A DNA stretch of 64,000 nucleotides from NCBI GenBank assembly GCA_013141065.1, contig JABFRR010000007.1, positions 1-64,000 on the forward strand, given 5' to 3'. The notes under the pieces were generated by a model. It had not been told where the DNA came from, ran no database searches, and saw nothing but the letters and a program-made list of their open reading frames with translations. This document shows positions 39,304 to 56,245 of the stretch, piece by piece. The translations under genes and the position numbers were made by a program. Source of the DNA: Bacteriovoracaceae bacterium (GTDB lineage: Bacteria; Bdellovibrionota; Bacteriovoracia; Bacteriovoracales; Bacteriovoracaceae). Within the stretch, counting starts at the first letter, position 1; each line of letters starts with the position of its first letter.

Positions 39304-40629
39304 ATGGAAAACTCTCTTTTAAATGATGACTTATCGCTAGAAAATTTGCTTGATAATTGGCAGACACTGACTCCTTCCAAACGTGAAGAGGTATTTGCTA
39401 TTCTAGGTCGTATTGACCAAGAAGAGTTATTCATTAACCTTTCATCAGATTACCAAGCTGAGCTTTTTGAAGATTTTCCCCACGCTGAAAAACGTTCATG
39501 GATTAGGCTTTTGGCCCCAGATGATATCGCTGATTTAATTCAAAATTTAAATGAAGACGCCCAAACTGAAGCTTTGAGATATCTCGACTATGCAACTCTG
39601 GTCGAAGTTAAAGTCCTAATGGCCTATGCTGAGGATGAAGCAGGGGGATTAATGAACTCGCGCTTTGCGAGACTGCGTCCTGAGATGACAGTCGAAGAGG
39701 CCATCAGGTATCTAAGGGCCCAATCTAAATCACACATTGAAACAATTTATTACGCTTATGTTCTCGATCGGGCCCAAGTCTTGTTAGGTGTTGTGTCTTT
39801 GCGTGAGCTTTTTTTGGCCAAAGCCCAAAGCACTGTCTCTGAAAACATGAACACGGATCTCGTGACTGTTCTGCAAGATGAAGATCAAGAAAGTATTTCA
39901 AAAACTTTTTCAAATCATAACTTTCTCGCCATTCCGGTTGTCGATGAATTAAACGTCATGAAAGGGATTATTACGGTAGATGACGTTGTGGAAGTTATTG
40001 AAGAAGAAGCAACGGAAGATATTCAAAAGCTCGGGGGGATGGAAGCTCTCGGTGAGCCTTACCTAGATATTAGTCTTCCTTCGATGATTAAAAAACGCGC
40101 TGGCTGGTTAATGGCACTTTTTGTTGGTGAAATGTTTACGGCAACAGCAATGAGTCATTACGAGCATGATATCGCCAAAGCCGTAGTTCTCGCTCTTTTC
40201 ATTCCACTGGTCATTAGCTCTGGAGGTAATTCTGGATCTCAAGCGACGACACTCATAATTCGTGCCATGGCCCTAGGTGAAGTTCGCTTGAAAGATTGGT
40301 GGAGAGTTTTATCTAGAGAATTAGTTTCAGGACTAAGTCTTGGGCTAATTCTCGGTTCAATTGGTATGGCCAGAATCTTACTTTGGCCTGGGAAAGAAAC
40401 TATTTATGGAGAACATTATTTATTAGTGGCCTTGACAGTCTCGCTTAGTTTAGTGGGAATTGTATTATGGGGAACACTGGCCGGATCAATGTTGCCATTT
40501 TTCTTAAGACGAGTTGGCCTTGACCCTGCGACTTCATCTGCACCTTTTGTCGCGACATTAGTGGATGTGACTGGACTTGTAATTTATTTTACAGTGGCGA
40601 GTTTTTTCTTAAAGGGTATTCTTCTTTGA
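39304..40629 (+). CDS. mgtE: MgtE-type magnesium transporter
   Basis: This 441-residue protein has the MgtE order: an N-terminal superhelical domain (TPSKREEVFAILGRI, DDIADLIQNLNEDAQTEAL), two CBS domains (from about residue 125; MNTDLVTVLQDEDQESI opens the second) and five transmembrane helices with the Mg2+-pore signature VISSGGNSGSQATTLIIRAMALGEV (about 302-326). It forms a homodimeric channel gated by cytosolic Mg2+. The start at 39304 gives the canonical length. The 3' end overlaps the convergent EamA gene by 21 bases. Confidence 0.93.
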   Translation: MENSLLNDDLSLENLLDNWQTLTPSKREEVFAILGRIDQEELFINLSSDYQAELFEDFPHAEKRSWIRLLAPDDIADLIQNLNEDAQTEALRYLDYATLVEVKVLMAYAEDEAGGLMNSRFARLRPEMTVEEAIRYLRAQSKSHIETIYYAYVLDRAQVLLGVVSLRELFLAKAQSTVSENMNTDLVTVLQDEDQESISKTFSNHNFLAIPVVDELNVMKGIITVDDVVEVIEEEATEDIQKLGGMEALGEPYLDISLPSMIKKRAGWLMALFVGEMFTATAMSHYEHDIAKAVVLALFIPLVISSGGNSGSQATTLIIRAMALGEVRLKDWWRVLSRELVSGLSLGLILGSIGMARILLWPGKETIYGEHYLLVALTVSLSLVGIVLWGTLAGSMLPFFLRRVGLDPATSSAPFVATLVDVTGLVIYFTVASFFLKGILL

Positions 40630-41496
40630 CGACAGAATAAGCATCCCAGCTAAAATCAAAATTCCACCAACGATTTGAATCAACTGCAGTTTTTCACCAA
40701 GAAAGAGCACTGCTATTAAAACACCAAAGAGTGGTTCGGTCGTACTTAAAATAGAAGCTTCACTTGAAGAAATACGGCGCAGTCCTGCTAAAAAGAGTGT
40801 CATTGCGAAAAGTGAGCAAATAATCGCCATGCTAATAACAAGTTGAGCATGAGTTTTGAGAATTTCTAAAGGCCTCGCCCCAGTTTGAAAATGAATAAGT
40901 GATAATATGATTCCGGCCCCGAGTTGAACATAAAAAGAAGAGGGCATGGCCGGAATAGAATTTAAGTATTTTCTTGAGTACATTATATAGAGAGCATAAA
41001 AAAATGCTGAACCTATTCCAAAAAGTAAAAATCGAGGCTCAGAAACAGACCATTCTCCCCATACCAGTCCCGTCAATCCAATTGAAACAATAATTAAAGA
41101 TAAAAAACCCATGCGACCTAATTTTTCACCCAAAATAAATTGGGCCAATACTGCTACAATCACTGGATAGGTATAAAGGAGTAAAACGGTGAGTGAAGCC
41201 GATAAACCCGAGAGAGCGATAAAAAACATATTTGAAAATAAGGCGTAACCGAAAATTCCCAGTGCGAGTGATGAAATTAATTCAAATCGAGAAAGGATGA
41301 GTGTTTTTGGCTTTGTGAGAATGATAATCATTCCCGTTAAGAGTGCTGAAATTGAATAACGAAGTGCCAGTAATTCACCTGGCAGGATTCCGACAGCATA
41401 AGCTTTTTTTCCAAAAAAACCCAAGGCACCAAAACAGGCACCGGAGAGAATGATTTGCAAAAAACCAATTTGTCTAAAAGTTAATGGTTTTTTCAT
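40609..41496 (-). CDS. EamA/DMT-superfamily transporter
   Basis: This protein of about 295 residues has ten predicted transmembrane helices in two EamA repeats. The first starts GFLQIILSGACFGALGFFGKKAY; the second carries SSEASILSTTEPLFGVLIAVLFLGEKL near the end, the usual Pro/Glu-containing signature. The likely function is export of a metabolite or amino acid; substrate unknown. The chosen start (41496) is the Met before KKPLTFRQIG; a longer frame to 41571 would overlap the neighbouring gene. It is coupled to that upstream gene by a four-base overlap. Confidence 0.87.
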   Translation of the reverse strand: MKKPLTFRQIGFLQIILSGACFGALGFFGKKAYAVGILPGELLALRYSISALLTGMIIILTKPKTLILSRFELISSLALGIFGYALFSNMFFIALSGLSASLTVLLLYTYPVIVAVLAQFILGEKLGRMGFLSLIIVSIGLTGLVWGEWSVSEPRFLLFGIGSAFFYALYIMYSRKYLNSIPAMPSSFYVQLGAGIILSLIHFQTGARPLEILKTHAQLVISMAIICSLFAMTLFLAGLRRISSSEASILSTTEPLFGVLIAVLFLGEKLQLIQIVGGILILAGMLILSSKKNTL

Positions 41497-42488
41497 ATTT
41501 GGATAACTGATTTTAATAAAACGATTATACTGCAGCCTATAAGTATGGCACCGATAATGAGTTCGGCCCAATTTTTAAAGATGGGTTTTGAATTGAGCAA
41601 TTGTTCTTCAAAGGTGTTATGAATTATAAGTTCATGTGAAGCACTCGAGCGTAGGCTACCATAAATTTTTTCACTTATTGTTCCATTGTTTTTTATATCG
41701 ATATTTAAAATTGGTGTTTTTAAACTGGCTTTCATTGCACCCTTAAACCCGCGACTGAGTTCGTATTCGTCAATCACCCCATCTTTATCTTTATCAAAAA
41801 TAGTTTGTTTGAAATTAGTGCTTTTAAGAACCCTGCTTACTTTCTCTCGAAAAGATTGGAGATTAAGATCTAAATTCACAAAGCGTTTTGAATCATCTGG
41901 AAAAAGGTGAGCATGAACTAATAGCGGGGAGCCAATTTCAATCGTTCTTTCAAAAATTAGATAAAGTGGGGGGAAAAAATAAGTTAAAAAGTTTTTTTCG
42001 CTCGTGAGTCGCAATCCAGATAGACTATTGTCGTAAAAATCATAAAAGCTCTCAATTCCCTTTTTATTAATTCCTTGCAATACATATCTGTGTTCAGTTA
42101 CTAGCTCAGAAATAATACTTGAATGAAGCGGACTATATGCGGGTTCGACGAGAAAAAAACCAGTTTGATCAAAAATTAAAAAAGGCTCAACACTTTGTTT
42201 ACTCCAAACCGTTTCATATTTAGTTCTTTTACCTCTATTAACTCTCTTTTTAATGACCATTGACCTGCAAACAATCTCTCTCCCTGAAAGATCGTGTGTA
42301 ATTGATCTTAGTGGCCACGTCACGCCTTCAATTTCTACTAATCCAGCACTTGCTGAAGAGATAAGTTGTTTAGAAATATTTTTGATTTTAGTCTTATGCT
42401 TTATTTTTTTTAAAGCATGGATGACACAAATACCCCCAGAGAAAAATAATAGGGCAAAAAGATTTATGGGATTCATTCCACTAGACAT
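41493..42488 (-). CDS. GIDE-like membrane protein with EF-hand motif
   Basis: This 331-residue protein has an N-terminal transmembrane helix and a C-terminal one (ELIIGAILIGCSIIVLLKSV). Between them a region (SSASAGLVEIEGVTWPLRS, REIVCRSMVI, then a Lys-rich strand) resembles the GIDE domain known from the mitochondrial ligase MULAN and from bacterial homologs. FDKDKDGVIDEYEL (about residues 230-243) is a complete EF-hand calcium loop. There is no RING domain. It is translationally coupled to the upstream lemA gene; LemA-GIDE pairs are a known association in bacteria, function unclear. Confidence 0.7.
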   Translation of the reverse strand: MSSGMNPINLFALLFFSGGICVIHALKKIKHKTKIKNISKQLISSASAGLVEIEGVTWPLRSITHDLSGREIVCRSMVIKKRVNRGKRTKYETVWSKQSVEPFLIFDQTGFFLVEPAYSPLHSSIISELVTEHRYVLQGINKKGIESFYDFYDNSLSGLRLTSEKNFLTYFFPPLYLIFERTIEIGSPLLVHAHLFPDDSKRFVNLDLNLQSFREKVSRVLKSTNFKQTIFDKDKDGVIDEYELSRGFKGAMKASLKTPILNIDIKNNGTISEKIYGSLRSSASHELIIHNTFEEQLLNSKPIFKNWAELIIGAILIGCSIIVLLKSVIQI

Positions 42489-43044
42489 TGGTTTTTAGGC
42501 TGGGTCTAACTTTCTCTGATTCGGCCACTTCAAAAAGTCTTTTTTTATGGTGAAGATTAATTTGAGCAATAATTGATGAGGGAAATTGTTCTATCATTGT
42601 ATTGTAATTGGTTACGGCATCATTAAAATGCTCTCTTCTGTGAGTCAAAGATTCCTCTAGTTCAGAAAGTCTGGTTTGTAATTGTATAAAATTGTTATTT
42701 GATTTTAGTTCGGGATAATTCTCCCCGATTGCAATTAATCCAGTGAAGGCATTTGATAATTCTTGGCTGGCTTTTATTTTATCATTTTCACTTCTTGCTT
42801 GCCCATAAAGCGTACGTGCATGGACGACATTGTCCAAAATCTTTTTTTCATGAGTAAGATATTGATTGATGATTTCTATTAGCTGGGGAATTTCATCAAA
42901 TCTCTGTTTGAGAATGACATCAATATTAGACCAAGACTTCTGAACTTGGTTTTTTAAAACAATAAGTGAATTGTTGATTTGGATGAAGTAATAAAGAAAA
43001 ATTATAAGAAAAATTCCCAAGAAAATAAGTACTGGTAAACTCAT
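42481..43044 (-). CDS. LemA-family protein
   Basis: This protein of about 187 residues has an N-terminal transmembrane anchor (VLIFLGIFLIIFLYYF) followed by a helical bundle with the LemA signature (LKNQVQKSWSNIDVILKQRFDEIPQLIEI), then AIGENYPELKSNNNFIQLQ and RREHFNDAVTNYN, all diagnostic. ATG 43044 is favoured by AAGGA nine bases upstream; a longer start at 43083 is possible. The 3' end overlaps the GIDE-like gene by eight bases. LemA proteins sit in the inner membrane with the bundle outside; the role is unknown. Confidence 0.9.
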   Translation of the reverse strand: MSLPVLIFLGIFLIIFLYYFIQINNSLIVLKNQVQKSWSNIDVILKQRFDEIPQLIEIINQYLTHEKKILDNVVHARTLYGQARSENDKIKASQELSNAFTGLIAIGENYPELKSNNNFIQLQTRLSELEESLTHRREHFNDAVTNYNTMIEQFPSSIIAQINLHHKKRLFEVAESEKVRPSLKTNV

Positions 43045-43137
43045 GACAATAAATCCTTTGTGACAGTTGGATTTATTATACATTTTATTTAAAAATTTAG
43101 TATTGCTATCAAGCTAAATATTATCAAGGCAGAAAAC

Positions 43138-43746
43138 TCAAGTATAAAAATGAGCAATCATTTCTAGAACGGCCATGGGAATATTTTGTTTTTCCCAGTT
43201 AATTTTAAGTTCTGTTTTAATTTTTAAATTCAGTTGATTTTCGAAATTTTGAAATTCAGCCTGCCTAGTTTCCAGTAATTCAGTTTGCGAAGAGCAGGTT
43301 TTACCATTGTCATCATGAATTTTAGGGTTAAAAGCTAAGCATCCATAAGGTTTGGATTTTCGGGAAAGTCCACATCCCAGCGAGCCATTGTTAAAAAATG
43401 GACAGGTATAGTGTCTTCGTAAGGTTTGAGAGTTTTTTTTACCAGTATATATTTCTTTATCGAGGCGAAATTGAGAAATGGCATTTTTTAGTGCACTAAT
43501 GAGCTTTTCTTTTTCTTCTGGAATTAATAGTTTGGGCATCAAGCTGTTTAAAATTTCTAGGGCTTCAAGTGGAGTTATCATCATTGAATTGGACGTTGAG
43601 GTACAACAAGTCCCAGGACAATTTGCACAGTGAATTCCAGATTTTTCAAGTGCACTCATACTTGAAATTAAAACATCTCTGCGGGAAGATGTTGCAATAT
43701 AATCAACGGATTCAATTAAATTTTTAATGATTATCTGAGAATTCAT
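43138..43746 (-). CDS. YkgJ-family cysteine-cluster protein (2)
   Basis: This 202-residue protein has CANCPGTCCTSTSNSMMITPLEAL (about residues 36-59) and later Cys residues in YTCPFFNNGSLGCGLSRKSKPYGCLAF, a metal-binding pattern related to YkgJ. It is longer than the 38699 protein and has a helical C-terminal extension (KTELKINWEKQNIPMAVLEM). Function unknown. It is divergent from the AlkC gene, sharing a short promoter region of about 110 bases. Confidence 0.75.
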   Translation of the reverse strand: MNSQIIIKNLIESVDYIATSSRRDVLISSMSALEKSGIHCANCPGTCCTSTSNSMMITPLEALEILNSLMPKLLIPEEKEKLISALKNAISQFRLDKEIYTGKKNSQTLRRHYTCPFFNNGSLGCGLSRKSKPYGCLAFNPKIHDDNGKTCSSQTELLETRQAEFQNFENQLNLKIKTELKINWEKQNIPMAVLEMIAHFYT

Positions 43747-43859
43747 AATTCTTTCTTATCATGAGATTTATGAAAAATGACAGTATTTCTCTCTTTATAA
43801 TGCATTGGATAATGCACAAACGCTGTTAATTGTTAAGGATGTTTGGTTATAATGACCTC

Positions 43860-44954
43860 ATGGAACCTTTTAAAAATAAAATAAACATTGATACGGCCAG
43901 GCAAATATCACAAAATATAAAACGTCATTATCCAGAATTTAATGACACTTTATTTCACAAGAATATTAACTCGGAGTTAACCGACTTAGAGTTAAAGGAT
44001 CGAATAAGATTTCTAGCAAAAAAACTACACTTATTTTTACCCACAGATTTTAAAATTTCAGCGAAAATTTTAAAAAAAGCCGTCGGGGACCACTCAACTT
44101 TAAGTGGTTTTAACGTATGGCCTCTAACGGAATATATTTCGAATTATGGAGAAGATGAATTAGATTTATCTTTAGAAGTTTTAAAAGAAATGACTAAAGT
44201 TTTTACCAGTGAATTTGCGGTGAGAGCTTTTTTTATTAAAAATCCCAATCGCACTCTAAAGATATTTAAGCATTGGGCCCAAGATGAAAACGAACATGTT
44301 CGCAGGCTGGTTAGTGAAGGCTCACGGCCACTCTTACCTTGGGGACAAAAAATAAGTGAATTTGTTAATTCTCCCAAACTCACGATAGAACTTTTGGAGC
44401 TACTAAAAAATGACGAAAGTTTGTATGTCCGTAAATCAGTAGCGAATCACTTAAATGATCATTCAAAAAATCACCCAGACTTAGTGGTTAAAACACTACA
44501 GTCTTGGAAAAAATCTGACCCAAAAAATAAAAACATTGAATGGATAATTCGTCATGCTTCAAGAACTTTAGTAAAAAAAGCTCATCCCAAAGCCTTAGAG
44601 TTGCATGGAGTAAGTAGTAAAAAGATAAATGTCCTAAGTTTAAAATTAAAAAAGAATCAAATTAAAATTAATGAGAGCCTAGAGATCTCAGTCACTATAC
44701 AAAATAAATCTAAAGCAAAATCTTTAGTTATTCTTGATGTCGACCTTCACCTTTTGAAAGCTAATAATTCCCATAATATAAAGTGTTTTAAGGGAAAAAA
44801 AGTCAGCTTAGATGCTGAAGAAAAAATACTTGTTATTCTGAAAGTTCCATTGAAAAAAGTTACAACACGGACTTATTATAGTGGTGTTCAGTATCTAAGT
44901 TGTAAAATAAACGGGATATCAACTCCAAAGAAATCTTTTAAATTAGATTGTTAA
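43860..44954 (+). CDS. AlkC-like DNA alkylation repair protein with C-terminal Ig-like domain
   Basis: In this protein of about 364 residues, residues 1-250 form HEAT-like repeats with the AlkC/AlkD signatures HVRRLVSEGSRPLLPWG, SLYVRKSVANHLNDHSK and WIIRHASRTLVKK. Residues about 260-364 are beta strands (KKNQIKINESLEISVTIQNKSKAKSLVI, VILKVPLKKVTTRTYYSG) resembling an Ig-like domain, as found in AlkC-type glycosylases. These excise cationic alkylated bases such as 3-methyladenine and 3-methylcytosine. ATG 43860 (MEPFKNK) matches the family start; a TTG at 43830 and ATG 43839 also read in frame. Divergent from the cysteine-cluster gene. Confidence 0.85.
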   Translation: MEPFKNKINIDTARQISQNIKRHYPEFNDTLFHKNINSELTDLELKDRIRFLAKKLHLFLPTDFKISAKILKKAVGDHSTLSGFNVWPLTEYISNYGEDELDLSLEVLKEMTKVFTSEFAVRAFFIKNPNRTLKIFKHWAQDENEHVRRLVSEGSRPLLPWGQKISEFVNSPKLTIELLELLKNDESLYVRKSVANHLNDHSKNHPDLVVKTLQSWKKSDPKNKNIEWIIRHASRTLVKKAHPKALELHGVSSKKINVLSLKLKKNQIKINESLEISVTIQNKSKAKSLVILDVDLHLLKANNSHNIKCFKGKKVSLDAEEKILVILKVPLKKVTTRTYYSGVQYLSCKINGISTPKKSFKLDC

Positions 44955-44969
44955 CGAAGGAATTTTTTA

Positions 44970-46079
44970 ATGAAGCTTAAAGTTATTAGTCTTTTTATTT
45001 TCATTTTTTTCACTTCTGCATTTTCATCAGGAGAGGCGAAAACGTACACATCTTCTGGTCAAAAATTCAACGTTGAAAAGATTTTTGAAGGGGACGATGT
45101 CATTTGGGGATTTGATTTTTTGAAAGACGGATCTCAAATATTATTTTCTGAGCGCAATGGAAAATTAAAATTAGTGGATATTAAATCCAAAAAAGTCACA
45201 GAAATCCTAGGAGTGCCTAAAGTTTTTACGGACTCTCAAGGTGGACTTCTAGATGTTTATCTAGATTCAAAAACACAATTTGTGTATCTCACCTACTCAG
45301 AACCAACTCCAAAAGGTGCTACCACCAGTCTTTTTAGAGGAAAATTATCTACGGATAATAAAAAAATTATTGGTGAGCGTTTTTTTCAAGCTCAAGCTTT
45401 TGCTAACGGTGGAATTCATTACGGCTCTCGTGTGGTAATAGACCAAAATGGATTTATTTTCCTGAGCGTTGGAGAGCGAAATGTAAGAGATCGCGCCCAA
45501 GATTTAAATACTCATCAAGGAAAAATTTTAAGGCTCAATTCTGATGGCACGATTCCTAAGGATAATCCTTTCGTGGCAAACAAAGTTGCCCTAGGAGAAA
45601 TTTGGAGTTTAGGACACAGAAATCCCCAAGGTTTGATTATCGATTCCAAGGGGCAACTCCTAAATGCAGAATTCGGACCTCGCGGTGGAGATGAAGTCAA
45701 TCTTGTCATCAAAGGCGCAAACTATGGTTGGCCTGTTGTAACTTACGGCAGTGAATATTATGGACCTTCAATTGGCACTAAATCAAAAGAAGGGATGATT
45801 CAACCACTCTATTATTGGGTGCCTTCAATTAGTCCTTCTGGATTGATGGAGTATACTGCGAATGTATTTCCAAACTTTAAAGGAAATTTATTTTTAGCAA
45901 CTCTTTCAGGGATGCATCTTCACCGAATAGTGACAGGTTCTGAGAGACAAATACTCCAAGAAGAAAAACTGCTTCTCGATTTAGAAGAGCGTTTTAGGCA
46001 GGTAAAGTTGGGACCTGAGGGTTTTATTTATCTTTCAACTGATAGCGGTAAGTTGTTGCGATTAGTTCCCGCACCCTAA
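44970..46079 (+). CDS. PQQ-type sugar dehydrogenase (glucose/sorbosone family), periplasmic
   Basis: This 369-residue exported protein has a signal peptide of about 20 residues and a six-bladed beta-propeller with the family motifs IHYGSRVVIDQNGFIFLSVGERN, HQGKILRLNSDGTIPKDNP, EIWSLGHRNPQGL and AEFGPRGGDEVNLV, followed by GANYGWPVVTYGSEY. The H in GHRNPQG is the catalytic-base region. Family members oxidise aldoses with PQQ, often as apoenzymes in bacteria unable to make PQQ. No PQQ genes are in the window. It lies 12 bases after the AlkC gene. Confidence 0.92.
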   Translation: MKLKVISLFIFIFFTSAFSSGEAKTYTSSGQKFNVEKIFEGDDVIWGFDFLKDGSQILFSERNGKLKLVDIKSKKVTEILGVPKVFTDSQGGLLDVYLDSKTQFVYLTYSEPTPKGATTSLFRGKLSTDNKKIIGERFFQAQAFANGGIHYGSRVVIDQNGFIFLSVGERNVRDRAQDLNTHQGKILRLNSDGTIPKDNPFVANKVALGEIWSLGHRNPQGLIIDSKGQLLNAEFGPRGGDEVNLVIKGANYGWPVVTYGSEYYGPSIGTKSKEGMIQPLYYWVPSISPSGLMEYTANVFPNFKGNLFLATLSGMHLHRIVTGSERQILQEEKLLLDLEERFRQVKLGPEGFIYLSTDSGKLLRLVPAP

Positions 46080-46189
46080 TTAGCTGTTAGTCAAAGCTTA
46101 GGCTAGACAAATCTATCAATGACAAATTCTTAAAAAAAGCCGATTATATTAGGGCAATTATAATTATTTATACCCTTTGAGGTTTTACT

Positions 46190-47174
46190 ATGTCTGTCAC
46201 GATAACTCGCAATCCAAATTTATCAAAATCTGGAACTCAAAAATCTTTTGAGCATCTTATTAAAAAAGAATTTGGTGAAAATTGGTGGACTGGACTCGCT
46301 CCAAAAGATTGCCCAGGTTTTGAACAAGAAAGAAATTGTTTAGTGGCTTTGCCATTACTAAATTTGAAGACACTTTCTCGTGAAGATGTTCTCGCGTATT
46401 TTAATAACTCTTGGACACTCACAGAACTTCTTTTTTCAAGTTTAAAAGTAGAGGAGGCTTACATAAGACCTCCTTACCACGGGCTTCGGCATCCGATGAT
46501 TTTTTATTACGGGCACCCTGCTGTGTTGTATGTGAATAAATTAAGAATCGCCGGACTTTTAAATGGCTCAATTAATCTTTACCTAGAAAAAGTTCTTGAG
46601 ACTGGTGTTGATGAAATGAGCTGGGATGATATGTCTAAGAACGAAATGAGTTGGCCATCCGTCGCTACCGTTCGAGAATACAGACAAACTGTATATAATC
46701 AAATTGTGAATCTTATCAAGACTCATCCAGATTTAGAGTCTCCAAAATTTTTAGACCAAAACACTCCTTGGTGGGCACTTTGGATGGGAATGGAACATGA
46801 AAAAATTCATTTTGAAACTTCAAGTGTTTTGATTCGCGAGTTACCTATCGAGTACCTGGAGACTCCTAAATATTGGGCACCATTACATCCTTCTAAAAAT
46901 AATTTCTCTCTCGAGACTGCCAATAAATGGGAAAAGTCGGCTGGAAAACTTGTTCAAGTTGGAAAACCCACAAGCATTGAATCATTTGGTTGGGATAATG
47001 AGTATGGAAACCGAAGTGTAAAAATTTCTGATTTTACCTATACAAAAAATCAAATTACGAATGGAGAGTATTTAGATTTTGTCGCTAGTGGTGCATACAT
47101 AAATGACAAGTACTGGACTGAAGAAGGTCTTGCTTGGAGAAAATTTCGAAATACAAAAAGGCCAACTTTTTGGG
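46190..47174 (+). pseudogene. ovoA: OvoA-type 5-histidylcysteine sulfoxide synthase, 5' part (disrupted)
   Basis: The frame from ATG 46190 encodes the N-terminal DinB-like domain of OvoA: FSSLKVEEAYIRPPYHGLRH, then IFYYGHPAVLYVNKLR, and the iron-binding HxxxHxE in GMEHEKIHFETSS (about residues 203-215). The start of the FGE-sulfatase-like domain (FTYTKNQITNGEYLDFV) follows. OvoA is a non-heme iron enzyme that joins cysteine to C5 of histidine, forming the sulfoxide precursor of ovothiol. The frame is cut by an IS4-type element after base 47174. Without the IS it continues in frame as RPTFWVATGPEGS. Confidence 0.93.
47165..47174. repeat. 10 bp target-site duplication ACTTTTTGGG (left)
   Basis: ACTTTTTGGG at 47165-47174 recurs exactly at 48762-48771 on the other side of the element. 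Length 10 fits IS4-family insertion. Joining at this repeat restores the ovoA frame, so the insertion is a clean, probably recent event. Confidence 0.93.
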
Positions 47175-47181
47175 CTTACTA

Positions 47182-48644
47182 TTACCCACAACTTTCATCG
47201 GTTGTGGGTTTTTTGCATTGATCATTCATTGTCTCCCACATCATTGCACCTGATTCTATTCTTTGCCAGCCTTTCGCAATACTCATAACACCCGGTTCAC
47301 CATCACCCTTACGACCAAGCCAGCCTCCAAGTTGAGCAATCCATTTTATAACTGTATCAAGAGTAGGGACTTTTTCAGGAATCTGATTAGGGATTTTTTT
47401 CTCTTTTATTTTTTTGTAATTTAACGTCACCCAGGCTGACTTCCATTCGGCCGTTGTAATAATACAATCAGCTGGTAATTCTGATGATTCTCGCCTCAGC
47501 ATCGTTGCCCAATAAATTCTCCAGGCAATTATCGACTTCAATGCAATAAATTTAATTAATTTTTCAGCATGTCCAAGTCGACAATCCTCAACCTTGCACG
47601 TGGATTTTAAAATTTTAAAAAATGTCTCAATTTGCCATCTTTGCTTGTAATAATGAATGATTTCTAATGCTTCTTTATCATTGTTAACTTTTAAATTAGT
47701 TAAAATTCTCCAGTGAAGAGCTTTTATTCCTTTCGGTGGATTTCTTTCAACAAGCTCAACTACATTTAATGGAATATCTACTCGCGTATCTGATCTCGCA
47801 ATCTTAATTCCCCTTGGTCTACTTAACAACATAACCTCAGTAAAACGAAGTTCAAGCACTGCTGAACGTGCCGCCACTCCCTGCTTTGCAGGAATGTGTA
47901 AACACACTCGCCCCATTTCAGGCAATTTCCGAAGTTTGTGATCCATATTTTGATGGAGTCCGGAAGTATCCTCTATCGTTCTAGGAGACGATGAACGAAC
48001 AACAAAATTCACATCTTCAATTAAAGCTTCTTGAAAAAACTCATAGATATCATTTTCACGATCTCCAACTATTACAATATCTTTATCTGGCATTCGTTCT
48101 TTAGATTTCTTTAAAGCCTCAATCCATCTATAACTTTCTTTTTCTTCAATTGGTCTTTTATAATTTTTATATTCACTCAATTCTTTGACATCATCATCAA
48201 TACTTCTCGTCCAAGTTTTTTGATCGATTACTCCTAATGGAACTCCATCCGTGTTAACTGCAAGAGCTGTATGAGTAATAAGGCCGTGAGTTTCAAATCC
48301 TTTAGAAGTGCTATAAGAACTAAGTCCTTCGGTTGCCCGATGTGAATCATAATTAATTTTAGAAGTATCTTGAACGATAAGAATACGATCGTCAGGTAAC
48401 GACCTTTCATATGTAATTCTATAATGAGGATCTAGGATAAGATCGCTTGAGACGGAGTTGTTGTCAAAAATCGATAAGCACCTTTCACGGCTGCCCACTC
48501 AGCACATGCTTGATTAATAGATAAAGTCGGTGCCTCTGCTAGAGATTTGGTAATTTTTAAAAGTCTCTTGTGAAGACGATCATCGCTAAAGGCATGAGAA
48601 GAAAACTCTTCTTGAATCCAAGAAGAAGCATCATTTTGAGTCAT
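47182..48644 (-). pseudogene. IS4-family transposase, single-base frameshift
   Basis: The N-terminal 70 residues start at 48644 (DASSWIQEEFSSHAFSDDRLHKR, Tnp DNA-binding domain) and the main frame covers residues from FDNNSV onward. Motifs include IVQDTSKINYDSH (first Asp), IVGDRENDIYEF (second Asp) and the YREK-type signature YYKQRWQIETFFKILKS with the Glu. Adding one T to a five-T run near 48468 joins both frames as GAYRFFDNNSV. The last codons run into the inverted repeat. A functional enzyme would need the missing base or frameshifting; the family usually uses a single ORF. Confidence 0.88.
47184..47214 (+). terminator. Inward-facing terminator in the left inverted repeat of the IS
   Basis: ACCCACAAC (47184-47192) pairs with GTTGTGGGT (47201-47209) around an 8-base loop, followed by T6 overall. 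It stops transcripts entering from ovoA, so downstream ovoA, decarboxylase and lyase sequences are likely not reached from the original promoter. Confidence 0.8.
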
Positions 48645-48720
48645 AAAAACCTCTTGAAGTTATTTAACTTAAAAGGTTAATAGATCTAAATAGAGTGGCC
48701 TAGACTCAGGGCCCAAAAAA

Positions 48721-48752
48721 CAAAAAACCCACAACTGATGAAAGTTGTGGGT
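48721..48752 (-). terminator. Inward-facing terminator in the right inverted repeat of the IS
   Basis: This is the mirror of the left one. On the minus strand ACCCACAAC pairs with GTTGTGGGT across an 8-base loop and is followed by T6. It blocks minus-strand transcription entering the transposase gene from outside; the transposase promoter must lie between it and 48644. Confidence 0.75.
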
Positions 48753-48761
48753 AATAGTAAG

Positions 48762-48771
48762 ACTTTTTGGG
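48762..48771. repeat. 10 bp target-site duplication ACTTTTTGGG (right)
   Basis: Exact copy of 47165-47174, directly after the right inverted repeat, and in frame with the 3' part of ovoA. Confidence 0.93.
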
Positions 48772-49400
48772 TGGCCACTGGGCCAGAGGGTTCTCACCAA
48801 TACGAACTGCGTACTATTTTTGAAAATATTCCTCTACCACTTTCATGGCCTTGTGAAGTGAATTTTCACGAAGCACTTGCTTACTGTCATTATAAAGCAG
48901 AGGTCGATAACTCGAAATTGAAATATCGATTGTTAACTGAAGCAGAGTTTGTTTCGTTAACTCCGGCCGACAATGATCCAGTCTTACAAAAAAGATCTTA
49001 CCGAAATATAAAAGGCCAATCCGACATTGAAAAAGAATACAAGGAAAATTTTAATTTCATCTGGTCATCACCCAAGAATGTTGACTCGCTTCTTTTGGGA
49101 AATACTTGGCATTGGTTAACTGATCAATTTAATCCTCTTGACAATTTTTCTGTGAATTCACTTTACGATGATTTTTCTACACCTTGCTTTGATGGTAAAC
49201 ACCAAATGATAAAGGGGGGATCATTTATAAGCTGTGGCCACGAAGCTAGTAAATGGGCACGCTTTCACTTTCGTCCCCACTTCTATCAACATGCCGGATT
49301 TAGAATAGCCGCAAGCTTGGATGGAAGTCCGGATAACGGAGCAAAATTACTTTTAAAAACCAAAGAGTATGTTCATCAAAAAAGAGAAAATATTCTTGAT
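48772..49400 (+). pseudogene. ovoA: OvoA 3' part (FGE-sulfatase-like domain)
   Basis: This part continues OvoA after the IS. The FGE-like domain is readable as PCEVNFHEALAYCHYKAE, KYRLLTEAEF, NTWHWLTDQFNP, MIKGGSFISCG and ending FRPHFYQHAGFRIAAS. In OvoA enzymes this domain completes the active site. After FRIAAS the frame stays open with no stop or separate start and leads through a helical linker (LLLKTKEYVHQKRENILDQM) into decarboxylase sequence. The C-terminal methyltransferase domain found in many OvoA proteins is absent. An apparent ATG at 48738 lies in the IS end and is not the natural start. Confidence 0.88.
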
Positions 49401-50836
49401 CAGATGGAGAAAAATCCCGAATGGTGGAAAGCAGTTGAGCAACCTCTTGAATTATCAAACGATGAAATGAAATCACTGTTAGAGCAAACTGAAAGTCGTG
49501 TACTCACTTATATGAAAGAGCTCGACGGCCAATCTCCAATGGGATTAGCTCATGATCCAAAAACAACGGTCTTAAAGCAAACTTTAAAATTCCTTACCAA
49601 TCTTCAATTAATTTTCCGGTAAATCCTGAAAATTACCAATCACTTTTAAAAACAGTCTTTGAGGACATGGCCCCTTATTCACAAATTCCTGGTCATCCAG
49701 GTTTTGCAGCGTACGTGGCAGGTGCAGGAAATTTTATTTCTAATACTGCACAACTAATTGCTCAAACACTCAATCCATTTACAGGGCATTACATGATGGC
49801 CCCTGGCTTAGTCACACTAGAAATGGAAGTCATAAAGTGGTTTCAACACATGGTGGGTTTTGATGAAAGAGGTTCTCAAGGCTTTCTCACCACAGGAAGC
49901 TCACTGGCATCAATGAGTGCTATATCCATGGCCCGCAAAGAAAAAGTTGTCGGTTTTGATTACAGCAATGTAACGGCCTACACCTCGGCAGATGCTCATC
50001 ATTGTATAGCAAAATCATGGGCCGTCTTAGGATTTAAAAAAGAGAATTTAAGATTAATTCCTCTGAAAAATTTTAAAATGGATACGACACTTTTAAATCA
50101 AAAGATTGAAGAAGACCTGGCCCGTGGATTTAAACCTTTTATGGTTGTTGCTACCTTGGGATCAACAAAAACAGGTGCTGTTGATAATTTAAAAGAGATT
50201 CTTCCTATAACAAAAAAACATAATTTATGGCTGCATGGAGATGGTGCCTACGGTGCTCTATTTATGTTGACTGATGCCGGCCGAGAAATTTTAAAAGGAA
50301 TTAATGAAGTCGATTCAGTTGCCCTTGATCCACACAAGGCCCTTTCGATTCCTTACGGTACTGGATGCTTATTAGTAAAAAATAAAGATCACATGTTGTT
50401 TGATTATTTGTCAGATGATTCTTACATGCCCCCTCGTCCAGTTGATCAAGTGGATTATGCTGATATTACTCCAGAGCTCTCTAGAGATTTTAGAGGTCTG
50501 CGTATTTGGTTGCCGCTAAAGACTTTAGGAGTTGGCCCTTTTATTTTAAATTTGGAAGAGAAGTTAAAGCTTGCTCAATGGTTAGCTTTGGAAATTAACT
50601 CAATAAAAGACCTAGAAGTGATTTCAAACCCCGAGCTCACCATCCTCACATTTGCACATAAAAAAGGAAATGAGGAAACTAAAAAACTGATGGAGAGAAT
50701 AAATAATCAAGGAACACTTTTTTTATCAAGCTGCACAGTCGATGGAAAGCTTGCCATTCGTTTTTGTCTGCTTGGTTTCAGGCTTCATTATGACCGCCTT
50801 CAAAAAGCACTCGTTGAAATAAAAGGAATGGTTTAA
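49400..50836 (+). pseudogene. PLP-dependent (group II) decarboxylase, fused to OvoA, -1 frameshift near 49583
   Basis: The beginning (SNDEMKSLLEQTESRVLTYM, KELDGQSPMG) is in the OvoA frame and stops at 49620. The rest is in the -1 frame: INFPVNPENYQSLLKTVFED and GHPGFAAYVAGAGNF, then YTSADAHHCIAKSW (PLP-stacking His), HGDGAYGALF (Asp for the pyridine N) and DPHKALSIPYG (Schiff-base Lys). Bases 49583-49589 read TTTAAAA in the phase T-TTA-AAA, a slippery heptamer whose -1 slip gives exactly the needed frame. Relatives decarboxylate aromatic or related amino acids. Substrate by context: 5-thiohistidine or a precursor (inference). An ATG at 49667 is too late to be a real start. A plain indel is the simpler alternative to programmed shifting. 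Confidence 0.85.
49583..49589 (+). promoter_or_regulatory. Slippery heptamer T TTA AAA at the OvoA/decarboxylase frame change
   Basis: The bases ACT TTA AAA TTC are read in the OvoA frame. The heptamer TTTAAAA fits X-XXY-YYZ in the correct phase, and a -1 slip joins the decarboxylase frame as LKIPYQSSINFPVN. I did not see a convincing stimulatory stem-loop or internal Shine-Dalgarno, so use as a programmed signal is unproven. Confidence 0.4.
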
Positions 50837-50844
50837 AAACAAGT

Positions 50845-51963
50845 ATGACTATTGCCCATTTTAAATCTCAGTTCTATCAAGGCACGGAAAGAATTCATTT
50901 CAATAATGGAGGGCTTGCTCCAATATCACTTCCTGCGAGGGAGCGTATTCATTATTGGGCCGACAGATTTTACAATGAAGGATTTTTTACAGATTTGGAT
51001 TATGTCGAGAATGTTAAAACTTCAAGACGCTCACTTTCTCAATTAATTGGTTGTCATGATTTTGAAATTGCTTTTTTCCAAAGTACAGCGAGTGCCGTTA
51101 GCCAATTGGCGATGCAATTTCCTTTAGAACCAGAGGATGAGGTCATCACGTGGGCCGAAGAATATGGCTCACACCTTTACCCATGGCAAGAGGCCTGTAA
51201 AAGAAAACAGGCGAATCTAATCTTAGTTAATAGTCTGGAAAATTTATCGACTCCAATAAATTTAATCATTGAGAAAATTACTGATAAAACAAAAGTGATT
51301 GCATTATCTTGGGTTCAGTTTTTAACTGGAGCCAGAACTGACATTGAAGCATTGGGAAAAATTACAAGTGAAAGAGGAATATTCTTTTTCGTAGACATCA
51401 TCCAAGGCTTGGGGCTGCACCCGTTTGATATGAAAAAATGGAAAGTTGACGCCGTTGCTGGAGGAAGCCACAAATGGCTTTTTAGCCCTGTCGGAGTTGG
51501 TTACTTAGCTATAGACCAAAAACATATATCAAAAATAAAACCTCACAATGTGGGATCTTATACATTTGGTACTTGTGATGATCCAACCAGCTTAGAGTGT
51601 ATTCCAAAGCTTGATGCTCTCAAGTTTGAAGCTGGCTCCAAACAAGTTTTAGAAATCACGGCCCTTGGTGCAAGTGTTGATCTAATTTTAAAGACTGGAG
51701 TTTTAAATATCGAACAAGAAACTTTAAGACTCGCAAGCATTTTGCGATTAGGACTTGAGAGAAATCACTATCAAGTTCATTCACCATTTAAAGTGGATCA
51801 TCACCATTCAGCAATGGTGAATTTTATTCCCAAAGCTCATTCGATAGAGGCACTCAAATCAATCAATTGTAATTATGCAATAAGAGGCCCTGGGGTGAGA
51901 TTAAGTCCGGCCGCTTTTACTACTGATGAATCCATTCAAAAAGTATTGAACGTTTTAAAATAA
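50845..51963 (+). CDS. OvoB/EgtE-like PLP-dependent C-S lyase (class V aminotransferase fold)
   Basis: This 372-residue protein belongs to the cysteine desulfurase/kynureninase-like class V group: HFNNGGLAPISL at the start, FFQSTASAVSQLA, FFVDIIQGLGLHPFDMK (Asp and Gln near PLP) and the Lys motif AGGSHKWLFSPVGVGYL (about residue 209). EgtE and OvoB cleave the C-S bond of the sulfoxide intermediates of ergothioneine and ovothiol. Placed 8 bases after the OvoA-decarboxylase, it most likely cleaves 5-histidylcysteine sulfoxide. The ORF is intact even though the upstream gene is broken. It overlaps the convergent arfB by nine bases. Confidence 0.82.
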   Translation: MTIAHFKSQFYQGTERIHFNNGGLAPISLPARERIHYWADRFYNEGFFTDLDYVENVKTSRRSLSQLIGCHDFEIAFFQSTASAVSQLAMQFPLEPEDEVITWAEEYGSHLYPWQEACKRKQANLILVNSLENLSTPINLIIEKITDKTKVIALSWVQFLTGARTDIEALGKITSERGIFFFVDIIQGLGLHPFDMKKWKVDAVAGGSHKWLFSPVGVGYLAIDQKHISKIKPHNVGSYTFGTCDDPTSLECIPKLDALKFEAGSKQVLEITALGASVDLILKTGVLNIEQETLRLASILRLGLERNHYQVHSPFKVDHHHSAMVNFIPKAHSIEALKSINCNYAIRGPGVRLSPAAFTTDESIQKVLNVLK

Positions 51964-52359
51964 TTTTTCTTGACGCATTTTTTTGGTATCACCTCTAGAT
52001 TTTTTTTCTTTGATTCTCTCATTTACAGATGATTTTGTTGGCTTTGTTTTTTTTCTAATCTTTGGCGCAATAGAAACACTTTCAATCATCTCGTGAAGTT
52101 TTTTAATTACGGCGTTAATATTCAGATGTTGAGTGCGATGTTCTTGAGAGCTGAGAGTTAGAACTCCTTCAGCACTGAGTTTATTTTGGTATTTTTTTAA
52201 AAAGCGATCTAAAACACTTAAAGGTAATGTTGTTGATTTAAGAGCGTTCCAATGCAGGGTTGCCTTTGAATTGACCTTGTTAACATTTTGGCCCCCAGCT
52301 CCAGAACTTCTAGAAAAACTTAATTCATATTCATGAGAGGGAATTTTATATTTGCTCAT
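51955..52359 (-). CDS. arfB: ArfB/YaeJ-type peptidyl-tRNA hydrolase (ribosome rescue)
   Basis: This 134-residue protein has the GGQ catalytic loop in FSRSSGAGGQNVNKVNSKATL (about residues 14-34) and a basic, unstructured C-terminal tail (IRKKTKPTKSSVNERIKEKKSRGDTKKMRQ, seen as a Lys/Arg run) that enters the empty mRNA channel in ArfB. It lacks the codon-recognition domains of RF1/RF2. It rescues stalled ribosomes by hydrolysing peptidyl-tRNA. Confidence 0.92.
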   Translation of the reverse strand: MSKYKIPSHEYELSFSRSSGAGGQNVNKVNSKATLHWNALKSTTLPLSVLDRFLKKYQNKLSAEGVLTLSSQEHRTQHLNINAVIKKLHEMIESVSIAPKIRKKTKPTKSSVNERIKEKKSRGDTKKMRQEKLF

Positions 52360-52405
52360 AGAAAAAAGTATAGCTCTAAAGTAAACACATTGATAGAGTG
52401 CTTCT

Positions 52406-52666
52406 ATGGCCTCAACAAAACAAGATGATATTGAAAATCTTATTCTCTCAACGCTTTCATTTTATGAAGCGATGACATTTTCTAAAATTGTTTTTGATAT
52501 GGATACAGAGTTATTAAAAAGTTACCCAGATTTTGACCGGGATCAAATGCTGCTTATATTGAGATCCTTTGAAAAAAGAGGATTGGTGAAGGCTTCAGGT
52601 GAGGGTAGTGACCGTAAATGGCAACGGATCCATAAAAAAAGGTCTTTTTGGAAGCGTTTTTTTTGA
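52406..52666 (+). CDS. Small hypothetical protein, winged-helix-like
   Basis: This 86-residue protein has three helices followed by a likely beta-wing (KRGLVKASGEGSDRKWQRIHKKR), resembling a DNA- or RNA-binding winged helix. The basic, aromatic C-terminal end (SFWKRFF) is distinctive. The DDE element inserted directly after its TGA (target duplication starts at 52667) removed any native terminator. Function unknown. Confidence 0.65.
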   Translation: MASTKQDDIENLILSTLSFYEAMTFSKIVFDMDTELLKSYPDFDRDQMLLILRSFEKRGLVKASGEGSDRKWQRIHKKRSFWKRFF

Positions 52667-52675
52667 GACTCCCTG
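52667..52675. repeat. 9 bp target-site duplication GACTCCCTG (left copy)
   Basis: The same nine bases occur at 54317-54325. They immediately flank CAGGAATTCCCGG on the left and CCGGGAACCGCAG on the right, the imperfect inverted repeats of the element. Confidence 0.85.
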
Positions 52676-54316
52676 CAGGAATTCCCGGTGTAAATATCTT
52701 CCTCTCAAAATATGATAATAAATTTATTTTTTCGTAATGTTTTTGTGGTTTCTGGCCTTCACAATTCATCCTTGGCCATCTAAAATACTTTCAGAGGTAT
52801 TTTATGGGGCGGCAAGCAAATAAATTAAAGGTAGAAGAATGTCATGAGATTATTTTGAAAGAATTTTCAAAATTTAGGGAAAAAAAGACCAATTTTTGAA
52901 ATTCCGCTCAATAATTTTTAATGTCGAGTTTTGCAGTTTTTGCGCTGAAGTCACCATCCCTCTTGCAGTTTGAACAACACTTTACAGAAGAAAAACAAGA
53001 AGACATAATCTCAACTCACTTTTTAAAATTGATCGAGTTCCATCGGACACACATTTACGAGATGTTTTAGAAACGGTAGAATACGCTCAATATCGCCCTG
53101 TTTTTCAACGATTATTTTCATACATTCAAAGATCAAAAACTCTTGAACAGTTTGAGTTTATGAAAATAAATGGTCAATCACATTATTTATTAGCAACAGA
53201 TGGCTCTGGCTATTATCGCTCAGAAAAAGTCGTTTGTGATTGTTGCATGATCGAAGAACATTTTGATGAAAATAATAAACTGACACTTAAGTTTGGCCAC
53301 AACATCTTAGCAGGTTCAATTGTTCATCCAAATTTTAGACAAGTCATTCCAATGTGTCCTGAACCTATCATGAGGGTTGATGGCGAAGTAAAAACGATTC
53401 GGAACAAACAGCATTTAGAAGATTTTTAGAGGATTTTAAAGAGAGCATCCTAAGTTGAAAATTATTTTTTTACTTGATGCTCTGTATGCCAATAGCCGAT
53501 TATCAAATTGCTCCGAGAGTATAAATATGAATTTATAATTGCGGTAAAGGAAACGAAAAGTCTTCTATTTATGCTTGTCAAAGAAGGAGAAACCACTGGG
53601 GAAACTCAATTTTTGGAAACAAGTTTTGAATTTGGTGAAAAAGTTATCAAAACAACTAAAATGAATTATAGATTTGCAAACAACGTAAGGCTTCATCAAG
53701 ACAAAGACAGTCCATTTATAAATTTTGTTCAAGTTAAAGAAGTTACCGAATGGATTGGAAAAAAAGGCAGACCTGAAAGAATCGAACGTAATTTTACATT
53801 TATTACCGACATACTAGTTACTAAAAATAACATTGCACAACTTGCAAAAGGAGGCCGTACTCGTTGGAAGATAGAAAATGAAACGTTTAATACTTTGAAG
53901 AATAGAGGTTATAATTTAGAACATAATTATGGGCACGGAGAAAAAAACTTAACACATAATTTTATAATGAGTATGTTCCTGGCATTTTTAGTTGACCAGA
54001 TTCAAGAAATTAGTTGTTACACATTTAAGAAATTAATTGAAAAATATGAACAAAAAATCCCGCTTGTGGAAAAAGCTTGAAAGCGGTTTTGAGTTTCTAG
54101 AGTTTTCTAGTTGGGATCAATTTTATTATCGAATGTGCTATAATGAAATGCCACCGTCTTCTGGGTAGGTTTTGCGCCCGTTCTGACTTATATTTTTAAA
54201 CTCTTCAAAGACATTCAATATAAAACTAGTTTTCTTTAAGAAAAGTGTGAACTTTTTACCCTAAAATTACAGGAGACTGAAATCGGGTTGACTGGTCGAG
54301 AGGCCGGGAACCGCAG
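52676..54316 (+). mobile_element. DDE-transposase insertion element, copy A (IS4-like/ISNCY-like)
   Basis: This 1641 bp element has imperfect inverted repeats of 13 bp (left CAGGAATTCCCGG, right rc CTGCGGTTCCCGG) and a 9 bp target duplication. It is inserted between the stop of a small gene and ygiQ. The ends were confirmed by the related copies at 61979-62544 and 62554 onwards, which share the same terminal sequences. One transposase gene is on the plus strand and is frameshifted in this copy. Confidence 0.85.
52804..54168 (+). pseudogene. DDE transposase of copy A, frameshifted
   Basis: The gene begins MGRQANKLKVEECHEI and ends in FYYRMCYNEMPPSSG. Recognisable parts are HYLLATDGSGYYRSEK (first Asp), IIFLLDALYAN (second Asp), and GGRTRWKIENETFNTLKNRGYNLEHNYGHG containing the Glu in a W-x-I-E-N-E context. 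Such a layout is typical of transposase families with an IS4-like DDE core (ISNCY group). Indels near 52890-52950, 53110-53150, 53405-53500 and 54077 break the frame. Confidence 0.8.
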
Positions 54317-54325
54317 GACTCCCTG
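54317..54325. repeat. 9 bp target-site duplication GACTCCCTG (right copy)
   Basis: Exact repeat of 52667-52675. Confidence 0.85.
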
Positions 54326-54382
54326 TAAACTTCACCATACTCATTGTCAGATTGATCACAATCTCATAGTTTACGCTCTATT

Positions 54383-56245
54383 ATGACGACCCCAAAAAAT
54401 ACACCAGATTGTAGTAGCGTAGACACCCTGCCAATCACGGCTTGGCTTCCAACGACTTTAAAAGAGGCGACAAAACGCGGCTGGCACGAGCTTGATGTCG
54501 TATTAATTACTGGGGATGCGTACGTAGACCATCCGGCCTTTGGTTCAGCAGTCATTGGCAGAATTTTGGAATCCTTGGGATTAAAAGTGGCCATTATTGC
54601 TCAACCCAATTGGCGAGATGACTTACGAGATTTTAAAAAGTTTGGTGCTCCTAAGTATTTTTTCGGCGTCACTTCGGGGGCCATGGACTCCATGGTAAAC
54701 AAATACACTGCTGGAAAAAGACTGCGTTCTAACGATGCGTACACTCCTGGTGGCTCGCCTGATTTTAGACCTGATTATGCAACGACAGTTTATACAAAAA
54801 TTCTTAAAGAACTCTACCCTGAAACACCTGTCATGATTGGTGGAATAGAGGCTTCATTAAGGCGAGTGACTCATTATGATTTTTGGTCAGATAAACTTAT
54901 GCCAAATATATTGACGACTTCTGGAGCGGACTTATTGGTTTATGGAATGGGAGAACAACCACTACGTGAATTAGTCAGATTACTTTTAGCAGGAGTTCCT
55001 TTTAGCGAAATTCAAACCATTCCTCAAACGGCATTTTTAATTCCGGAGAACAATCCGCTTCCAATGGGAAATATTTCTTGGAGCGTGCAAGAATTATCAA
55101 GTCATGAAGTATGTCTTAAAGATAAAAAAGCCTACTCAAAAAATTTCATGTACGTCGAAGTAGAATCTAATAAACAATTTGCGAGTAGGTTAACTCAAAA
55201 AGTTGAAGGAAAAACCCTGGTCATTAATCCTCCTTTTCCCACAATGACAGAAGATGAAATAGATGCCTCTTTTGATTTGCCATACACCAGATATCCCCAC
55301 CCAAAATATAAAGATAGAGGTCCTATTGCTGCATATGAAATGATTAAGTTTTCTCTCAATACTCACCGTGGTTGTTTTGGGGGCTGTTCATTTTGTACCA
55401 TTTCAGCTCATCAGGGAAAAATGATTGCAAGTCGCTCGAAAGAATCAGTCATGAAAGAAGTCGATCAAATTGCCAAGATGTCAGACTTCAAAGGTTATAT
55501 AAGTGACATTGGTGGACCTTCGGCCAATATGTATCAAATGAAAGGTATTGACCAAGAAGTGTGTGACCGTTGTGCTGCTCCTTCATGTGTTTTTCCTGTG
55601 ATTTGTAAAAACTTGGATGCTAGTCCTGCTAAAATGACCGAGCTTTACAAAGAAGTTGCCGCACATCCAAAAATTAAAAAAGCTTTTGTCAGTTCTGGTC
55701 TTCGCTATGACTTAATGTTTAATGAAAGATCTTTGGATAAAAAGAAAGATGAAGAATATGTTGATCAGCTCATTACTCATCATGTAAGTGGGCGTATGAA
55801 AGTGGCACCGGAACATACTGAGGACCATGTCTTAAAATCGATGCGAAAGCCTGCGTTTCATTACTTTGAAACATTTAAAAAGAAGTTTGAGGAAATTTCG
55901 CATAAAAAAGGTTTGAGACAAGAGTTGATTCCCTATTTTATTTCAAGTCACCCTGACTGCACGCCTGAAGATATGGCGAAACTGGCAATCAAGACGAAAA
56001 AATTAGGTTATCGATTGGAGCAGGTTCAAGATTTTACACCAACACCTATGACCGTAGCTACAGAAATTTATTACTCTGGTTATCATCCTTATACATTAAA
56101 AGAAGTGAAGACCGCGATTACGCTTGATGAAAAAACACGACAAAGAAATTTCTTTTTTTGGTATAAGCCAGAAAATAAAAACTATGTGAAAAATTATTTA
56201 GCTAAAAATAAATTATTTGATTTAACTAAAGAACTTTTTGGTTGA
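54383..56245 (+). CDS. ygiQ: YgiQ-family radical SAM protein
   Basis: This 620-residue protein has an N-terminal B12-binding-like domain (DVVLITGDAYVDHPAFGSAVIGR) and the radical SAM cluster C-x3-C-x2-C in HRGCFGGCSFCTIS (about residues 329-342), followed by KGYISDIGGPSANMYQ and a further Cys group (CDRCAAPSCVFPVIC) near residue 395. The C-terminal half contains VSGRMKVAPEHTEDHVLK, conserved in the UPF0313 family. The substrate is unknown. The 3' end overlaps the convergent PLA2-like gene by 52 bases. The start at 54383 has no strong Shine-Dalgarno. Confidence 0.93.
   Translation: MTTPKNTPDCSSVDTLPITAWLPTTLKEATKRGWHELDVVLITGDAYVDHPAFGSAVIGRILESLGLKVAIIAQPNWRDDLRDFKKFGAPKYFFGVTSGAMDSMVNKYTAGKRLRSNDAYTPGGSPDFRPDYATTVYTKILKELYPETPVMIGGIEASLRRVTHYDFWSDKLMPNILTTSGADLLVYGMGEQPLRELVRLLLAGVPFSEIQTIPQTAFLIPENNPLPMGNISWSVQELSSHEVCLKDKKAYSKNFMYVEVESNKQFASRLTQKVEGKTLVINPPFPTMTEDEIDASFDLPYTRYPHPKYKDRGPIAAYEMIKFSLNTHRGCFGGCSFCTISAHQGKMIASRSKESVMKEVDQIAKMSDFKGYISDIGGPSANMYQMKGIDQEVCDRCAAPSCVFPVICKNLDASPAKMTELYKEVAAHPKIKKAFVSSGLRYDLMFNERSLDKKKDEEYVDQLITHHVSGRMKVAPEHTEDHVLKSMRKPAFHYFETFKKKFEEISHKKGLRQELIPYFISSHPDCTPEDMAKLAIKTKKLGYRLEQVQDFTPTPMTVATEIYYSGYHPYTLKEVKTAITLDEKTRQRNFFFWYKPENKNYVKNYLAKNKLFDLTKELFG

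Follow-up and report, generated by a model that had tools for sequence, protein, structure and literature searches.

A conserved OvoA-decarboxylase fusion of predatory Bdellovibrionota with 5-thiohistamine as its candidate product

The 64,000-nt stretch of DNA analyzed here (the window) covers positions 1 to 64,000 of contig JABFRR010000007.1 from a Bacteriovoracaceae bacterium, and at 46190–50836 it carries a broken gene whose pieces resemble the sulfoxide synthase OvoA and a group II decarboxylase dependent on pyridoxal phosphate (PLP). Are these pieces the remains of a true OvoA-decarboxylase fusion, standing where other OvoA proteins carry a methyltransferase, as the initial annotation of this DNA proposed from the sequence, and which thiol would such a protein help to make? 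The first part can be answered from relatives: 22 of 368 Bdellovibrionota genomes have an intact fusion, with OvoA above the TIGR04344 cut-off and the decarboxylase in one frame of 1019–1089 codons, and we regard the fusion as almost certainly a real, conserved architecture. The second part is approached below through the protein families of the fused domains and of the gene that adjoins them.

The fusion gene in the window and in related genomes

The gene lies in the window as follows.

46190–47164, plus strand: first part of the OvoA-decarboxylase gene, with a DinB_2-like domain carrying HxxxHxE and the start of the FGE domain (TIGR04344 333 bits, PF12867, PF03781), broken off by an insertion element
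48762–49316, plus strand: rest of the OvoA FGE domain, ending FRIAAS (TIGR04344 201.8 bits for the open reading frame (ORF) 48738–49622)
49317–49560, plus strand: linker plus the decarboxylase N-terminus; relatives keep this passage open and conserved, and here the frame changes at its end
49565–50836, plus strand: group II PLP decarboxylase domain (PF00282 187.5 bits; A2 profile of linker plus decarboxylase 766 bits)

The boundaries given by the initial annotation were confirmed, the ATG at 46190 being the ORF start and 50836 the end of the decarboxylase frame, and its estimate of about 1016 residues for the restored product equals the 1016 aa of three relatives (L018, L019 and L020). Its statement that no stop follows the FGE domain was wrong for the window copy, in which, besides the insertion, the FGE frame stops at 49620–49622 and the decarboxylase continues in another frame to 50836, the switch sitting near 49560 within a short run of A. 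The lesions are two, the insertion and the frame change with its stop. Because the gene is split in two, both OvoA pieces fall below the TIGR04344 cut-off (333 and 202 bits versus 400); the first part is 70–74% identical to the genes of L005, L018, L019 and L020.

When 57 genomes, including the window's own, were searched with the FGE-linker piece, all 13 of the other genomes in the genus proved to have it. Twelve of these have a single open frame of 1019–1067 codons, and the last (G010), split by contig ends, is the 23rd fusion genome above the OvoA cut-off in the wider census. That census, made with TIGR04344 over the 368 genomes, placed 35 above cut-off; the intact fusions among them span three families (f1, f6 and f21), and Bacteriovoracaceae and Bdellovibrio sp. 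qaytius (L027, CP025734) are among the carriers with names. Nine genomes have OvoA frames of 692–741 codons and were classed as the methyltransferase type, two of them by test (G016, as L017, and G158) and the other seven by length only, and three genomes have frames of 467–516 codons with no room for a C-terminal domain. A further 51 genomes gave only weak TIGR04344 matches, EgtB-like by reading. The methyltransferase-type OvoA of G158 (L103) occurs without a fusion, though the genus code of this genome (g71) is common to three fusion genomes.

The linker and decarboxylase delimit the same set of genomes. Scoring at most four candidates per genome in most genomes, the A2 profile gave at least 720 bits in exactly 24 genomes, which are the 24 fusion genomes, the window's and G010 included; the next match was a stand-alone gene at 406 bits, the highest of the matches of 263–406 bits that eight more genomes gave in frames of 473–533 codons. 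We also looked for the opposite arrangement, namely homologs in two separate genes with an open linker in this strain only, which the initial annotation had named as evidence against a fusion. What was found was the reverse, the intact single ORF in 22 genomes that it had proposed as a check.

The FGE-linker piece of the window, scanned as a peptide pattern against the genome collection, gave 17 loci. The frame reaches the decarboxylase in 13 of these (L018–L024 and L026–L031), all with Bdellovibrionota titles, and one (L025) is cut by a contig end; the three loci from other groups (L032–L034) gave no decarboxylase match. This one scan weakly suggests that the fusion is absent outside Bdellovibrionota. 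Three pattern matches among viral contigs included no relative. In the plasmid collection, OvoA-like genes with E values no worse than 1e-50 occur in 18 records and relatives of the decarboxylase in 403, all of the latter below 60% identity. OvoA beside such a decarboxylase was not found in the neighbourhoods examined, namely those of 5 of the 403 decarboxylase records (H3 unannotated) and 3 of the 18 OvoA records. Both an OvoA and a decarboxylase relative occur on a plasmid of Streptomyces sp. RerS4, about 33 kb apart. On this plasmid (plas01; L111:14926–17319) the sulfoxide synthase half of ovoA shares 50% identity with its L027 counterpart, and the neighbours of the gene are ketosynthase, carrier-protein and sugar-type genes, with two class I methyltransferase genes flanking it. 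On a plasmid of Sulfurovum mangrovi (L112:4034–7292), the gene after ovoA encodes a C-S lyase of the PatB family, unlike the class-V lyase of the fusion loci.

Phylogeny and selection

A tree was built from 37 OvoA halves, without the window pieces and after removal of six duplicate fusion rows; its root was not inferred. A branch with 99/99 support separates the 23 fusion rows from all the others. Adjoining this clade, in an open fork, are three methyltransferase-type rows (G158, Sericytochromatia and Obscuribacterales) and three OvoA-only rows, the latter on long branches. The ratio omega of nonsynonymous to synonymous change was 0.03–0.16 in OvoA, linker and decarboxylase across six pairs of intact genes (14 of 18 region-pairs; synonymous divergence, dS, was saturated in the other four). 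These ratios indicate strong purifying selection on the fusion gene. Linker residues that do not vary, such as W546, W547, Q552 and P553 in L018 numbering, tie the OvoA and decarboxylase halves to each other, and the single clade, the conserved linker and the purifying selection together set the fusion far beyond chance.

The OvoA half and the decarboxylase half

Three fusions were scanned with TIGR04344 and scored 542 (L018), 581 (L027) and 554 bits (L031) against the cut-off of 400. None of the 18 fusions compared departs from the HxxxHxE iron motif (H203, H207 and E209 in L018), whose residues are those named in PMC9103826 (papers are cited by accession, for the parts of their text available to us). 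A GVDEMSWDD stretch is common to the fusions and the solved OvoA 8khq and does not occur in the solved EgtB-IV. Among solved relatives of this half, 8khq scored 344 bits and EgtB-IV (8vig, 8vih) came next with 303 bits. By motif and score, EgtB-IV is less likely than OvoA as the identity of this half; EgtD was also not found in 19 of the 24 fusion genomes, and therefore hercynine would mostly not be on hand.

The remaining five fusion genomes (G002, G005, G006, G011 and G183) have EgtD, three of them above cut-off. In all of these except G006, a weak sulfoxide-synthase match of 87–105 bits lies beside EgtD, so that in those four genomes ergothioneine looks like the product of a separate pathway.

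The PF00282 score of the C-terminal domain lies far above the 27-bit threshold and places it among the group II decarboxylases. The residues aligning with K303 (the PLP lysine), D271, H192 and Y332 (the catalytic-loop tyrosine) of DDC are the same in all 18 fusions compared; the positions of K303, D271, Y332 and G354 (see below) were counted from the alignment, and the label H192 was taken from PMC10570526 and matched without counting. The closest solved relative by sequence is 4obu/4obv (292 bits versus 214 for the next), and 4OBV is the tryptophan decarboxylase of Ruminococcus gnavus, an aromatic amino acid enzyme (PMC9448781).

A putative pathway to 5-thiohistamine

The gene that follows the fusion bears on the product.

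50845–51963, plus strand: class-V PLP lyase gene, an intact ORF, OvoB/EgtE-like by reading (PF00266 142 bits)

In 24 of 24 fusion genomes the next gene after the fusion is a lyase of this family (cut by contig ends in G005 and G007). When the ATG closest to the conserved start is taken as the lyase start, it overlaps the stop of the fusion at 8 of 11 loci, and at the other three it follows that stop by 0–3 bases; in the window, 8 bases separate the fusion end from the lyase ORF. The gene thus combines class-V family membership with linkage to a sulfoxide synthase gene, as lyases of the OvoB/EgtE type do. The ovothiol N-methyltransferase domain TIGR04345, fused or elsewhere, was found in none of the 23 fusion genomes searched (the window genome included, G010 not among them), versus a match in G158. 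The initial annotation predicted a product other than ovothiol A; the lack of a methyltransferase match supports that part indirectly, and family resemblance suggests which molecule may be decarboxylated.

On these grounds we consider it probable that OvoA and the lyase would make 5-thiohistidine and that the fused decarboxylase would then give 5-thiohistamine in place of ovothiol A, all three chemical steps being those expected of the families. The intact relatives would hold three activities in two genes. First, the OvoA half would link the sulfur of cysteine to C5 of histidine as a sulfoxide. Second, the class-V PLP lyase would cleave this sulfoxide to 5-thiohistidine. Third, the C-terminal PLP decarboxylase would strip the carboxyl group to leave 5-thiohistamine, a step replacing the N-methylation to ovothiol A. 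Histidine might also be decarboxylated before sulfur insertion, with the end product unchanged, an order that is possible because OvoA takes histamine as a substrate and 5-sulfanylates it (PMC9103826).

In three genomes of another family (G228, L101; G237, L102; G238, L100), OvoA lacks a C-terminal domain and is followed by the same lyase family (338–404 bits; the G237 lyase is cut by a contig end). These could have the pathway minus its last step and are possible makers of 5-thiohistidine.

Several points weigh against 5-thiohistamine as the product. In G228, G237 and G238 no decarboxylase accompanies OvoA and the lyase, so that 5-thiohistidine itself may be an end product. The lyase passes no NCBIfam cut-off (52 bits versus 400 for the EgtE equivalog), nor does the decarboxylase pass any curated one; its scores for the histidine decarboxylase equivalog NF002748 were 91.6 bits in the window and 68–83 bits in three relatives, below the cut-off of 305. 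A structure prediction for L018, made from 13 alignment rows, was poor (mean pLDDT 56). The position of DDC Gly354 is Ser in 18 of 18 fusions, which might be read as a weak sign of an imidazole substrate, and GADL1 has Ser at this position too. Ser354 reportedly sets specificity in human histidine decarboxylase, going by the title of Komori et al. 2012. As worded in its available text, PMC10570526 assigns Ser354 to the aromatic enzyme and Gly354 to the histidine enzyme, in conflict with that title and with the aligned DDC sequence.

The decarboxylase might instead be an ordinary enzyme for histidine, tryptophan or another amino acid, tied to OvoA by co-regulation or chance, in which case the OvoA product would stay 5-thiohistidine. 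This reading, which we hold to be rather unlikely, fits the OvoA and lyase pairs of G228, G237 and G238, but it accords poorly with the retention of the fusion, conserved linker included, in three families and with the purifying selection on it, and no stand-alone member of comparable score was found in the 368 genomes (only four candidates were scored in many).

The cysteine side of OvoA chemistry offers another substrate, since cysteine sulfinic acid is named among the side reactions of OvoA with cysteine (PMC9103826) and cysteine sulfinate decarboxylases belong to the same superfamily (2jis, 187 bits): the domain could form hypotaurine from OvoA-derived cysteine sulfinate or decarboxylate the cysteinyl end of the sulfoxide. 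However, 2jis scores well below the aromatic enzyme 4obu (292 bits), and such a route needs no lyase, yet the lyase gene adjoins the fusion in 24 of 24 genomes; we judge it distinctly improbable.

That the C-terminal domain is a second PLP C-S lyase replacing OvoB is very unlikely: fusions of OvoB to OvoA, likewise a PLP enzyme joined to OvoA, are reported in hydrozoans (PMC9103826), but here 18 of 18 fusions retain the group II decarboxylase residues, including the catalytic-loop tyrosine, and 24 of 24 genomes have the lyase as a gene apart from the fusion. Finally, an artefact of the window, in which an assembly or reading error ran two genes together, might be suspected from the stop and frame change of the window copy and from run-length differences between copies of its insertion element, but is refuted, with next to no probability left, by the one open frame in 22 other genomes.

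Returning to 5-thiohistamine as the product, we lean towards the broader view that predatory Bdellovibrionota would make it via the fused OvoA-decarboxylase and the coupled lyase, and that the C-terminal slot of OvoA would thus be an exchangeable tailoring module holding a methyltransferase, a decarboxylase or nothing. The carriers of the fusion belong to the Bdellovibrio and Bacteriovorax lines of predators, for which a histamine-like thiol so far undescribed is suggested. If this is true, the fused decarboxylase, found across a whole predatory lineage, points to a new thiol of low mass, built on a histamine skeleton and lacking the carboxyl group, which would differ in charge and perhaps in its passage through membranes.

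Disruption of the window copy

The remaining features belong to the insertion element that interrupts the gene.

47175–48761, minus strand: IS4-family insertion element with inverted ends and a transposase ORF at 47182–48498 (NF033590 369 bits), one of five near-identical copies in the genome
47165–47174, no strand: left copy of a 10-bp target duplication, read from the sequence
48762–48771, no strand: right copy of the target duplication, read from the sequence

Duplications of 10 bp likewise flank the copies at L107, L109 and L110, and only a partial one was seen for L108 within the stretch examined. The five copies (the window and L107–L110) differ mostly in the lengths of single-base runs, with one plain substitution seen, and the window copy is set apart from the remaining four by the length of one A run. 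Differences of this kind could have arisen in assembly or be natural, and they bear on the frame change of the fusion gene because the lesion near 49560 also lies in an A run, a hint that this lesion could be an assembly error.

Loss of the gene in the window strain, interrupted by the insertion element, is apparently recent. In relative-rate counts, changes particular to the window copy outnumbered those of the reference by up to about 2.5-fold in 16 of 18 comparisons, which are not independent of one another; the remaining two, of the first OvoA part against L019, went in the opposite direction. The proportion of nonsynonymous differences (pN) in the window copy is far below that of synonymous ones (pS). 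Near the cluster, the translation of ORF 53508–54080 resembles a piece of a transposase, by eye only, and an Rfam scan of window positions 40000–56000 gave nothing at gathering scores.

Comparison with known systems

No prior description of an OvoA-decarboxylase fusion was found in the open-licence PMC literature (subscription papers and preprints were outside the scope), and none is mentioned in the available parts of PMC9103826, PMC7653990, PMC10570526, PMC9890322, PMC8623360, PMC12910592, PMC9448781, PMC4493562 and PMC12631010. In the same literature 'thiohistamine' does not occur, and 'mercaptohistamine' occurs once, in a reference title on 2-mercaptohistamine. No description of 5-thiohistamine as a natural product was found.

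The fusion resembles bifunctional OvoA (TIGR04344 plus TIGR04345) in its whole sulfoxide synthase half, with 542–581 bits against 400, the iron motif and GVDEMSWDD, and differs in having a linker and PLP decarboxylase where OvoA has its methyltransferase. The genomes with OvoA frames of 692–741 codons differ further, since the lyase family adjoining the fusion was not found in any of the nine (best 75–124 bits). The tryptophan decarboxylase of R. gnavus (4OBV), to which the C-terminal domain is closest in sequence among solved structures, is by contrast a stand-alone enzyme with another substrate. EgtB-IV (8vig, 8vih), part of the ergothioneine route, is the second-nearest solved relative of the OvoA half, from which it differs in lacking GVDEMSWDD.

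Two known systems likewise join OvoA to a further enzyme. In the OvoB-OvoA fusions of hydrozoans, as described in the available text of PMC9103826, OvoA is fused to a PLP enzyme of its pathway, but the partner there is the lyase, whereas here it is a group II decarboxylase and the lyase is a separate gene. According to the available text of PMC12631010, no enzymes making 5-thiohistidine derivatives other than ovothiol A were known before the acetyltransferase of that 2025 paper, the 5-thiohistidine N-acetyltransferase 5THNAT. Like the domain described here, 5THNAT is an OvoA-linked enzyme that diverts 5-thiohistidine from ovothiol; it does so by acetyl transfer and from a separate gene in Bacteroidota, whereas in Bdellovibrionota the diversion would be a decarboxylation by a fused domain.

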